This document shows positions 17,706 to 23,598 of a DNA stretch of 32,197 nt, piece by piece. Under the pieces are notes generated by a model. It was not told where the DNA came from and did not search any database. It saw only the letters and a program-made list of their open reading frames with translations. The stretch's first letter is position 1, and each line of letters starts with the position of its first letter. The stretch covers positions 79,104 through 111,300 of the forward strand of contig NZ_KI911634.1 of the NCBI RefSeq assembly GCF_000515355.1, given 5' to 3'. Source of the stretch: Promicromonospora kroppenstedtii DSM 19349 (GTDB lineage Bacteria > Actinomycetota > Actinomycetes > Actinomycetales > Cellulomonadaceae). The translations under genes and the position numbers were made by a program.

Positions 17706-18440
17706 ATGAAGCCGTTTCTGCTGCTCGCGACGCGTGCGGAGGACCTCGCCGCGGACGGTGAGTACGAGGCGTTCCGCCGCTACGGAGGCCTCGAACCAGA
17801 GCAGCTGCACCGGGTGCGCCTCGAGCGCGACCCGCTCCCGCCGGTCGACCTGGACGACTACTCGGGCGTCCTCGTCGGCGGGGGACCCTTCAACTCCTCG
17901 GACCCCGCGGAGCTGAAGGGTCCCGCGCAGCGGCGGGTCGAGGCCGAGCTGTCCGGGCTGCTCGACGAGATCGTGGCGCGCGACTTCCCGTTCCTGGGCG
18001 CCTGCTACGGCGTCGGCACCCTCGGGGCACACCAGGGCGCGGTGATCGACTCGACCTACGCCGAGCCCGTGGGACCCGTGACCATCGAGCTCGGCCCGGA
18101 CGCCGCGGACGACCCGCTGCTGGCCGGGCTCCCGCAGTCGTTCGCCGCGTACGTCGGCCACAAGGAGGCGGTCCGCAAGCTGCCCGACCACGCCGTGCTG
18201 CTCGCGTCGTCGGCCGGCTGCCCGGTCCAGATGTTCCGGATCAAGCAGAACCTGTACGCCACGCAGTTCCACCCCGAGCTCGACGGTCCCGGCATCGACC
18301 AGCGGATCGCCGTCTACCGCGACTACGGCTACTTCCCGCCCGAGGAGGCGGAGGCGGTCCGGGAGCGCTGCCTCGCCGTCGAGGTCACAGAGCCGCTGCG
18401 CATCATGCGGGCGTTCGTGGAGCGGTACGCACGTGTGTGA
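17706..18440 (+). CDS. class I glutamine amidotransferase-like protein
   Basis: The 244-residue protein has a complete GATase1 triad: Cys100 in FPFLGACYGVGTLG, and His189 and Glu191 in YATQFHPELDGPG, preceded by SGVLVGGGPFNSSD (the oxyanion-strand region, about 52-66). It resembles the stand-alone GMP-synthase-like amidotransferases of actinobacteria, which release ammonia from glutamine or act on gamma-glutamyl amides; no synthetase partner lies nearby, so the acceptor is unknown. The MFRIKQNLYATQFHPE segment is typical. The transcript is probably leaderless. The aromatic leader region follows. Confidence 0.88.
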   Translation: MKPFLLLATRAEDLAADGEYEAFRRYGGLEPEQLHRVRLERDPLPPVDLDDYSGVLVGGGPFNSSDPAELKGPAQRRVEAELSGLLDEIVARDFPFLGACYGVGTLGAHQGAVIDSTYAEPVGPVTIELGPDAADDPLLAGLPQSFAAYVGHKEAVRKLPDHAVLLASSAGCPVQMFRIKQNLYATQFHPELDGPGIDQRIAVYRDYGYFPPEEAEAVRERCLAVEVTEPLRIMRAFVERYARV

Positions 18441-18462
18441 CCGACCGCATCCTAAGACCCGG

Positions 18463-18491
18463 TGGACAGCCGCCAGGGCTGCGGCTACCGT
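18463..18491 (+). promoter_or_regulatory. promoter of the aromatic leader-DAHP synthase operon
   Basis: TGGACA (18463-18468, five of six matches to TTGACA), a 17-base spacer and TACCGT (18486-18491, TANNNT) are seen. Seven bases further is the GTG of the leader peptide at 18499, where transcription would be expected to start. This is the best-formed promoter in the window. Confidence 0.65.
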
Positions 18492-18498
18492 TTTGGCC

Positions 18499-18564
18499 GT
18501 GGACATCCGTTGGTATTGGCGCTTTACGTCGGCTCCTGGTGGAGCTCGGCGGGCGCACGCCTGA
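18499..18564 (+). CDS. aromatic amino-acid leader peptide (attenuator, 21 aa)
   Basis: A GTG-started reading frame of 21 codons plus TGA lies between the promoter and the terminator upstream of the DAHP synthase gene. Codons 5-9 read Trp-Tyr-Trp-Arg-Phe, an extreme clustering of the three products of the aromatic pathway. This is the hallmark of ribosome-mediated attenuation, in which lack of charged tRNA stalls the ribosome and prevents the terminator. The GTG lies 7 bases after the -10 hexamer, so the peptide mRNA is probably leaderless, and no Shine-Dalgarno site is needed or seen. Corynebacterium glutamicum is known to have such a leader before a DAHP synthase gene. Translation itself is inferred. 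Confidence 0.72.
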   Translation: MDIRWYWRFTSAPGGARRAHA

Positions 18565-18584
18565 CCAACTTTCCACCCGGAGCC
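18531..18584 (+). promoter_or_regulatory. complementary segments of the attenuator
   Basis: Segment 18531-18542, just downstream of the aromatic codons, and segment 18573-18584 pair at 11 of 12 positions. The second ends 2 bases before the terminator stem begins. A ribosome stalled at the Trp/Tyr codons leaves the first segment free; one that reaches the stop at 18562 would cover the start of the second. How this hairpin excludes the terminator is not clear from inspection alone. Confidence 0.6.
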
Positions 18585-18585
18585 A

Positions 18586-18625
18586 GGGCCTGGGACGCCG
18601 ATCGCGTCCAGGCCCTTCGTCTTTA
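18586..18625 (+). terminator. attenuator terminator upstream of DAHP synthase
   Basis: The left arm 18586-18598 (13 bases, one bulged G) pairs with 18604-18615 over a 5-base loop, followed by TTCGTCTTTA. It lies between the leader peptide stop and the DAHP synthase start, so it would end transcription before the gene unless prevented. Confidence 0.8.
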
Positions 18626-18710
18626 CCGAGACGGGCCGCTCCGGACAGGAGTCGGTGGCGGGCCGTCCGGTTCCTCGAACCAGACCCGCCAACTTGGAGC
18701 CCCGATCCCG

Positions 18711-19823
18711 ATGAGCATCACCCCTGCGGAACCCAGCACCGAGGCGACGACCGACCTCGGTACCCGCACCTCCGACCTGCGCATCCGCGCTCTCGACCCG
18801 CTGCCCGCCCCGCGCGGCCTGCTGGAGTCGATGCCGCTCGGCACGGCCCGCAGCGACCTCGTCACCACGTCCCGCCGCGAGGTGCGTGACGTCCTGACCG
18901 GCGAGGACGACCGTCTCCTGACGATCGTCGGCCCGTGCTCGGTGCACGACCCGGCCGCCGCGCTGGAGTACGCCGGACGGCTCGCCACGCTCCGACGCGA
19001 GCTCTCCGACGACCTCGTCGTCGTGATGCGCGTGTACTTCGAGAAGCCGCGCACCACCGTGGGCTGGAAGGGTCTGATCAACGACCCGCACCTGGACGGC
19101 TCGCACGACGTGCGGCACGGCCTGAACCTGGCTCGCGAGGTGCTGCTCGGGGTGCTCGACGCCGGGGTGCCCGCCGCGACCGAGTTCCTGGAGCCCACCA
19201 GCCCGCAGTACATCGCTGACGCCGTGACCTGGGGCGCCATCGGTGCCCGCAACGTGGAGTCGCAGGTGCACCGCCAGCTCGCCTCGGGCCTGTCGATGCC
19301 GGTCGGGTTCAAGAACGCGACCGACGGCGACGTGCAGATCGCCGTGGACGGCTGCATCACCGCCGCCAGCGAGCACACCTTCTTCGGGGCCGACGCCGAG
19401 GGCCGCGCCGCCGCCGTCGAGACGACCGGCAACCCCGACTGCCACGTGATCCTGCGTGGCGGCCGCTCCGGCCCCAACTACTCGCAGGAGGACGTCGCCG
19501 CCGCCCTGCGCGTGACGCGCGGCTCCGGCCTCGGCGGGGCCGTCGAGACCGGCGTGATCGTCGACGCGAGCCACGCCAACTCGGGCAAGGACCACGTGCG
19601 CCAGGCCGGCGTCGTGCACGAGATCGCCAACCGCATCGCGGACGGCGAGCACGGCATCACGGGCCTCATGATGGAGAGCTTCCTGGAGGCCGGGGCGCAG
19701 CAGCCCGGCCCGCTGTCGGAGCTCGTCTACGGCCAGTCGGTCACGGACAAGTGCATGGACTGGGAGACCACGGAGGACCTGCTCCGCGACCTGGCAAAGG
19801 CCGTGCGCGAGCGGCGGGGCTGA
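18711..19823 (+). CDS. aroG: 3-deoxy-7-phosphoheptulonate (DAHP) synthase, class I
   Basis: The 370-residue enzyme joins phosphoenolpyruvate and erythrose 4-phosphate in the first step of the shikimate pathway. It has the class I (AroG/AroF-type) motifs: LLTIVGPCSVHDPAAALEYA (PEP site, about residue 66), MRVYFEKPRTTVGWKGLINDP, EFLEPTSPQYIADAVTWGAIGARNVESQVHRQLASGLSMPVGFKN, HVILRGGRSGPNY, VDASHANSGKDH and GLMMESFLEAG. Length is normal. Its start at 18711 has GGAG about 10 bases upstream; an in-frame GTG at 18462 is excluded since it would translate the promoter and terminator. Expression is likely governed by the attenuator just upstream, and a strong terminator follows. Confidence 0.96.
   Translation: MSITPAEPSTEATTDLGTRTSDLRIRALDPLPAPRGLLESMPLGTARSDLVTTSRREVRDVLTGEDDRLLTIVGPCSVHDPAAALEYAGRLATLRRELSDDLVVVMRVYFEKPRTTVGWKGLINDPHLDGSHDVRHGLNLAREVLLGVLDAGVPAATEFLEPTSPQYIADAVTWGAIGARNVESQVHRQLASGLSMPVGFKNATDGDVQIAVDGCITAASEHTFFGADAEGRAAAVETTGNPDCHVILRGGRSGPNYSQEDVAAALRVTRGSGLGGAVETGVIVDASHANSGKDHVRQAGVVHEIANRIADGEHGITGLMMESFLEAGAQQPGPLSELVYGQSVTDKCMDWETTEDLLRDLAKAVRERRG

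Positions 19824-23521: not shown

Positions 23522-23598
<77 letters not shown>

Follow-up and report, generated by a model that had tools for sequence, protein, structure and literature searches.

The region ahead of a class I DAHP synthase gene of Promicromonospora kroppenstedtii DSM 19349 raises the question of whether it acts as a ribosome-mediated attenuator and, if so, how a terminator could be controlled by a helix that shares no strand with it. Were both to hold, RNA- and ribosome-based feedback on entry into the shikimate pathway would operate in several families of Actinomycetes, with practical use for producers of aromatic compounds. An attenuator had been proposed here from the letters of the DNA (hereafter the original prediction). 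We followed this proposal in the window, that is, the whole stretch of 32,197 nucleotides that was analysed, and in related genomes. Features are numbered as in the window and lie on the plus strand unless stated otherwise.

An aromatic leader frame precedes the DAHP synthase gene

The gene (18711-19823) encodes a class I DAHP synthase of 370 residues (PF00793, 1.8e-85; TIGR00034, 3.7e-143), with a predicted Shine-Dalgarno sequence, GGAGCC, at 18696-18701. Direct reading of the upstream DNA bears out the promoter of the original prediction (18463-18491), with a -35 box TGGACA at 18463-18468, a 17-nt spacer and a -10 box TACCGT at 18486-18491. A gene for a glutamine amidotransferase of the PRK07567 type (17706-18440) ends only 22 nt ahead of this -35 box. 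The GTG at 18499-18501 begins 7 nt past TACCGT and opens a frame of 21 sense codons closed by TGA at 18562-18564; the frame (18499-18564) is predicted to be leaderless and to yield the leader peptide VDIRWYWRFTSAPGGARRAHA. Its putative regulatory codons 5-9, TGG TAT TGG CGC TTT (18511-18525), read Trp-Tyr-Trp-Arg-Phe as had been stated, and are almost invariant within the host's family and variable outside it.

Several segments of the transcript can pair with one another. The 5' strand of a helix P1, S1 (18509-18521), lies over the aromatic codons, with GUUGGU at 18509-18514 and GGCG at 18518-18521, and its 3' strand, S1' (18558-18569), spans the stop codon, with CGCC at 18558-18561 and ACCAAC at 18564-18569. 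Segment A (GGCUCCUGGUGG, DNA GGCTCCTGGTGG; 18531-18542) is complementary at 11 of 12 positions to segment C (CCACCCGGAGCC; 18573-18584); a local hairpin A:B, GCUCC-UGGU-GGAGC (18532-18545), is a sequence-based candidate alternative to A:C. Directly 3' of C stands the terminator-like hairpin T (18585-18616), whose stem pairs 18585-18598 with 18604-18616; it is followed by TCGTCTTTA, and with the U-rich tail UCGUCUUUA the feature extends from 18585 to 18625. A:C therefore adjoins T without overlapping it, in agreement with the original prediction. Further downstream, segment F (GCUCCGG, 18638-18644) is complementary to C, which would reach it through 18577-18583, and a possible segment F2 (GUCCGGUUCC; 18665-18674) has as candidate partners, judged from the letters, CCGGAC at 18641-18646 or the Shine-Dalgarno sequence. 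Neither P1 nor the C:F pairing beyond T formed part of the original prediction. P1 and A:C cross each other, and the predicted A:C fold places S1' in the apical stem, which favours mutual exclusion of the two helices over a pseudoknot.

The element recurs ahead of DAHP synthase genes in several families

An RNA model (R1) built from 29 relatives, the window excluded, scored the window at 123.6 bits. In the host's family, labelled through its named members Isoptericola L007 and Puerhibacterium L006, which share the leader, a close DAHP synthase (E <= 1e-100) was found in 45 of 61 sampled genomes, in 47 copies. The element is present at 45 of these copies, 44 of them recognised by the RNA model and one (L091) by its leader alone, which is that of L006. 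Both exceptions (L116 and L117) are extra copies in one genome, G283; the third copy of that genome has the element.

In a class-wide search, R1 matched 36 of 246 genomes at E <= 1e-3 and left 210 without a match. The window and 27 other matches precede a class I DAHP synthase motif (28/36), and six precede, by eye, a gene that combines a chorismate mutase domain with a weak DAHPS-like one; in the one of the six that was run against libraries, the DAHPS-like domain fell below the NCBIfam cut-offs. The matches L163 and L167 are probably false, because neither shows an aromatic leader or a DAHPS motif; L167 resembles a tRNA by eye. The six genomes with the fusion gene (7.4-9.2 Mb) belong to a single family, f35 (L161, L162, L164, L165, L166 and L168), and have leaders such as MGRYSSFTRPAPGGPVA.

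Mycobacterium relatives (family f22, whose leader L156 is identical to that of the named Mycobacterium L017) carry 75 DAHP synthase copies in 74 of 91 genomes. R1 matched 38 of the 70 upstream regions that were covered (30 + 40 loci), and these form a first type; among the five further copies, those of G459 and G468 correspond to L158 and L160. A second type comprises 31 of the remaining 32, with a YFWF-like leader, related segments and, by eye, no T. Because R1 misses this type, the class-wide figure is a minimum. The labels Micromonospora-like (f38) and Corynebacterium-like (g200) used below were inferred, with the leader as part of the basis.

Searches with leader patterns were less productive. 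Of the 297 genomes of the order, just 4 had a match to a strict 20-letter leader pattern. When 40 of the 80 named loci were scanned for the leader, the actinobacteria in which the pattern was not seen were Bifidobacteriaceae L009, L010, L012 and L013, Nocardiopsis L015 and L020, a Streptosporangiales MAG (L022) and Gryllotalpicola L032; the pattern also missed three loci found by the model (L014, L019 and L030), and among the pattern-negative loci only L009 and L010 were negative with the RNA model as well, so these absences carry little weight. Streptomyces was sampled by a single locus, L008. In a phylum-wide sample, 3 of 198 genomes matched at E <= 1e-6, and all three belong to the host's class. 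Frame and stems are thus conserved among relatives, where the original prediction had proposed that they be sought. On comparative grounds, these findings confirm that the leader element is a real, conserved regulatory leader found in several actinobacterial families.

The leader is predicted to be leaderless and is rich in rare aromatic codons

Consensus scans of 18200-18900 returned neither promoter nor terminator; these scans require more consensus letters and five T in eight positions. In the comparative data, 89 of 92 elements have a TANNNT box 6-8 nt ahead of the start codon of the leader (62 of them at 7 nt), and one further element has it at 10 nt (90/92 within 4-10 nt); at 460 control places within genes, the same search gave one. 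The 92 elements include near-identical sequences. The U fraction is 0.50 in the tail of T and 0.12 downstream, and is higher in the tail in 91 of the 92, although the tail is weak, its best 8-nt stretch holding only four U in 63 elements and fewer in five. TANNNT spacing and the U-rich tail speak for a promoter and a terminator despite the negative scans. The position of the leader GTG at the expected transcription start, noted as unusual in the original prediction, proved to be a conserved feature of the element.

Among 89 leaders, Trp is found in 74, Tyr in 88 and Phe in 87; near the stall site, Trp is missing from most of the Micromonospora-like leaders, of which RRYPYFAQAPGG is an example. 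Tyr codons in these leaders are TAT rather than TAC (98:8, against 11:415 in the DAHP synthase genes compared), and Phe codons are TTT rather than TTC (87:8, against 16:567). Either slow decoding or a constraint at the RNA level could explain this preference for rare codons. An arrest peptide with a conserved APGG was also considered and set aside, because the RNA segment GGCUCCNGGUGGAGC necessarily encodes APGG.

Alternatively, the element might be a conserved RNA to which a protein or a small molecule binds, the short frame being incidental. Such an explanation would suit the high conservation at the RNA level, and protein binding was proposed for the LEU element in the accessible part of PMC1262725. 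However, the aromatic residues are kept while their codons and order vary (WYWRF, YWRF, RYPYF, YFWF, WRFYF), the promoter spacing is fixed relative to the start codon, and no Rfam family reaches its gathering score for the element (the best scored 15.8 bits, with the cut-off at 39). We regard a ligand-binding RNA as very improbable.

P1, A:C, T and C:F coevolve

Folding singled out T, since the hairpin 18585-18616 (-24.4 kcal/mol) had a z of -4.97 and was matched by 0 of 200 shuffles. The longer segment 18531-18616 gave z -6.34 (0/200), and 18499-18584, which contains the leader, A and C and omits T, was less striking (z -1.98, 7/200). We then compared pairing between strands of the same sequence with pairing after strands were exchanged among 32 dereplicated sequences (5000 permutations). 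By this swap test four pairings coevolve, each with 0 of 5000 permutations reaching the observed value: T (z -11.55), P1, whose strands lie over the aromatic codons and around the stop codon (z -5.90), A:C (z -5.48) and C x F (z -3.73). A:B shows no coevolution (z 0.51). The control S1 x C gave z -0.27, and an intended control, S1 with the region after T, gave z -2.16 (71/5000), so the method has some background. Pairing of the 3' arm of T with the region just after it, striking by eye, was rejected (z -0.60), as was that of A with the region after T (z -0.53). The segments A, C and T come from an alignment that had been fitted to A:C and T and not to P1, so those two are favoured in the tests, and both the swap tests and the pair counts below ignore the relatedness of the sequences.

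Pair counts over 60 distinct sequences gave 93.5% paired and a covariation of 0.226, against 0.091 when shuffled (0/500). For A:C and T on 90 distinct sequences the covariation was 0.241 against 0.095, in an alignment that contains two minus-strand partial matches, L137 and L128, excluded from the other analyses of the element. The 60-sequence set used for P1 stems from 61 rows chosen from the 92 full elements, mainly Mycobacterium-like rows being omitted because their P1 has another register; this omission favours P1. Counting only its outer part, P1 alone was 88.9% paired, with 18 cells changed on both sides against 6.1 when shuffled and a score of 0.194 against 0.111. Its two pairs with double changes were not above shuffles (377/500). 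When P1 was slid by 3 columns, four double-change pairs appeared against two in place, with 58.5% paired and 12 both-side-change cells. The A:C pair of the original prediction thus covaries, and its reading of the hairpin as a terminator gains from the fold, the covariation and the tail.

Ribosome position is predicted to govern A:C

The conserved parts, their order and the leaderless spacing, together with the covariation of P1, A:C and T, are established by comparison of sequences. We think it rather probable that they form a ribosome-mediated attenuator through which DAHP synthase output follows the supply of charged aromatic tRNA; leader translation, stalling, timing, termination and a steric link between A:C and T are what we infer. 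Transcription would start at the GTG, and a ribosome would load at the 5' end of the RNA. If Trp-tRNA or Tyr-tRNA were scarce, this ribosome would stall at codons 5-7, covering S1 and leaving A free; P1 would be blocked, and A would pair with C as C emerges from the polymerase. Touching or nearly touching the 5' arm of T, A:C might then hinder T from closing at its base, close to the RNA exit channel. With ample aromatic amino acids, the ribosome would reach the stop codon between A and C and mask S1' and the start of C; A:C would be lost, and T would end most transcription. The leader probably lets the cell switch on the first enzyme of the aromatic pathway when aromatic amino acids are short.

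Computed folds with the ribosome at different positions followed this scheme for A:C, which had 9.00 pairs with a stalled ribosome against 4.08 with one at the stop codon. A:C pairing went up on stalling in 38 and down in 7 of 45 family members; it likewise rose in 19 of 22 Micromonospora-like sequences and in 8 of 13 Mycobacterium-like ones. C:F moved the other way, with 1.13 pairs stalled against 3.00 at the stop (down in 30, up in 9 of 45). A:C also formed without a ribosome (9.44 pairs), and the computed pairing of T did not change across the three ribosome states (13.07, 13.00 and 13.05 pairs). The spacer between C and T is 0 nt in the window and 3-5 nt in 70 of the 92 elements, which weakens the steric link.

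A ribosome covers the A-site codon plus 12 nt. By this arithmetic a ribosome stalled at codon 5, 6 or 7 leaves A free and one stalled at Phe codon 9 hides most of the first half of A, so in this model Trp and Tyr are the expected signals for the window's leader. Joint sensing of three amino acids, as originally proposed, is a stretch with regard to Phe.

Tests reveal no conserved antiterminator that shares a strand with T

Swap tests, folding in different ribosome states and models of a part-transcribed T revealed no conserved antiterminator that shares a strand with T. Of the upstream segments set against the 5' arm of T (D), none coevolves clearly with it, the z values being 0.14 for mid, -0.78 for C and 2.01 for S1; the aromatic codons gave z -2.14 with D, yet this was no stronger than for shuffled codons. 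C x E, another candidate for a shared-strand antiterminator, does not hold either. When T was modelled as part-transcribed, with 8 nt hidden, it did pair upstream if S1 was free: 11.50 pairs formed with the ribosome at the stop codon against 0.98 with the ribosome stalled. This could be taken as a trace of textbook trp-type attenuation, with a strand-sharing antiterminator of T that our analysis missed. However, the pairing arises when the ribosome is not stalled, which is the wrong sign, it drops to 1.89 pairs with a fully transcribed T, and the aromatic codons are no better than shuffled ones at pairing with the arm of T. We consider a missed textbook antiterminator scarcely credible.

As none of the upstream segments tested competes for T in the right state, any genuine control of T would have to proceed without a shared strand, and interference by the abutting A:C helix is the proposed route. 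These data partly support a variant of ribosome-mediated attenuation without the textbook strand-sharing antiterminator, and agree with the earlier suspicion that switching here is not of the textbook kind. The statement that all elements of attenuation are present in the right order holds for the parts and their order and fails for such an antiterminator. Likewise, the attenuator reading as a whole keeps its aromatic leader, covarying stems and terminator-like hairpin before the DAHP synthase gene.

Start-site coevolution suggests a translational output in Mycobacterium relatives

The coevolution of C with F, which lies beyond T, fits a different output as well. In a translational relay, stalling would favour A:C and free F to pair with F2, leaving the Shine-Dalgarno sequence open; without stalling, C would capture F, and the released F2 would close the start site. 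T would then serve either as a spacer hairpin or as a terminator that is partial and not regulated. In the second Mycobacterium type, in which no T is seen, F2 coevolves with the start-site region, its partner lying between the Shine-Dalgarno sequence and the start codon (z -4.55, 0/10000, n=32), against z -0.58 (n=31) for a linker control. This set was drawn from 40 loci, including named Rhodococcus, Nocardia and Amycolatopsis, by removing L232, L236 and L237 (no C:F pattern) and L031 (no F2) and merging duplicates. In the first type, the region ahead of the start site also coevolves with it (z -4.68, 0/10000, n=33). This coevolution of the start-site region with upstream RNA suggests a translational output in Mycobacterium relatives, although F x F2 shows none in the second type (z 0.78).

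For the window itself the evidence is divided. Computed openness of the Shine-Dalgarno sequence in its genus is 0.38-0.55 with a stalled ribosome against 0.02-0.08 (4/4), opening goes up with stalling in 27 and down in 8 of 45 members of the host's family, and aroR of Corynebacterium glutamicum is termed a translational regulator of aroF in the accessible part of PMC7356990. On the other hand, computed opening does not depend on stalling in two other groups, where it goes up in 5 and down in 10 of 22 Micromonospora-like sequences, and up in 4 and down in 3 of 13 Mycobacterium-like ones. Within the window's family (n=36), the region ahead of the Shine-Dalgarno sequence does not coevolve with it (z -1.53 and 0.41). 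In the window's computed fold, the closed Shine-Dalgarno sequence is not paired with F2. Pairing of F2 with the Shine-Dalgarno sequence in this family was therefore dropped as a candidate. Coevolution of the Shine-Dalgarno region in Micromonospora-like sequences is marginal (z -0.60 and -2.07, n=14, with at least three start codons misplaced by the script). The Shine-Dalgarno sequence thus opens on stalling in the window's genus, though not through release of F2, and we retain the relay as a rival for the window, albeit a rather unlikely one.

A wider scheme, which we put forward tentatively as a possible one, would join both outputs. It assumes one ancient actinobacterial chain of mutually exclusive helices (P1, A:C, C:F, F:F2 and F2:start site), driven by the ribosome on aromatic codons, with two outputs (intrinsic terminator and start-site closure) and two genes (DAHP synthase and the DAHPS-like/chorismate-mutase fusion); the terminator would be an insertion between C and F, controlled by an abutting, non-overlapping helix.

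Relation to known actinobacterial leaders

This kind of leader is already known from aroR of C. glutamicum; the spread of the element, P1 and the abutting layout look new. Neshat et al. (2014) is said to be the original study of aroR, the leader of aroF. The window's element was compared with two Corynebacterium-like loci whose leaders contain FYF rather than with C. glutamicum, and R1 matched L189 at 26.6 bits (E 1.2e-5) and L199 at 33.8 bits (E 1.1e-7); both loci are presumed to be from Corynebacterium, partly on account of the FYF leader. Both loci have a WRFYF leader and, by eye, an A:C helix of up to 12 bp with a directly adjoining hairpin.

According to the accessible parts of PMC11802643, PMC4046766 and PMC7356990, aroR resembles the window's element in placing an aromatic leader peptide before a DAHP synthase gene, but it reads Phe-Tyr-Phe and is said to answer to Phe and not to Tyr, whereas the window has Trp-Tyr-Trp-Arg-Phe. 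The same partial view of the review PMC11802643 reports that aroR raises transcription of the aroF operon on Phe limitation. Together with the Corynebacterium-like layout seen by eye, this response indirectly supports, by analogy, control of T by an abutting helix. By gene context and leader type and, weakly, by the Corynebacterium-like model matches, the window's leader is related to aroR at the sequence level, as the original prediction had supposed.

The trpL leaders of Streptomyces and Corynebacterium share with the window a leader peptide and hairpins, and that of S. lividans is leaderless, like the predicted leader here; in trpL, however, antiterminator and terminator share complementary segments, whereas the window's helices abut (accessible parts of PMC1262725 and PMC8079986). 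The LEU element of actinobacterial leuA likewise combines a leader peptide with helices that possibly form a pseudoknot, but its codon run pairs with the Shine-Dalgarno box (PMC1262725, in part). A LEU-like stem between S1 and the Shine-Dalgarno sequence did not coevolve in our set (z -0.34, n=61) and was rejected. Polycysteine uORFs of mycobacteria, reportedly described by Canestrari et al. (2020), are leaderless sensing frames like the window's, with a different amino acid.

The accessible part of a comparative study of 2005 reports that no conserved RNA structures were seen for Phe or Tyr operons in Actinobacteria (PMC1262725), and the literature searched, partly accessible and with subscription journals mostly outside its scope, contained no description of a DAHP synthase leader outside Corynebacterium. 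Elsewhere in the window, the Rfam scan placed a tRNA gene on the minus strand at 23525-23598.
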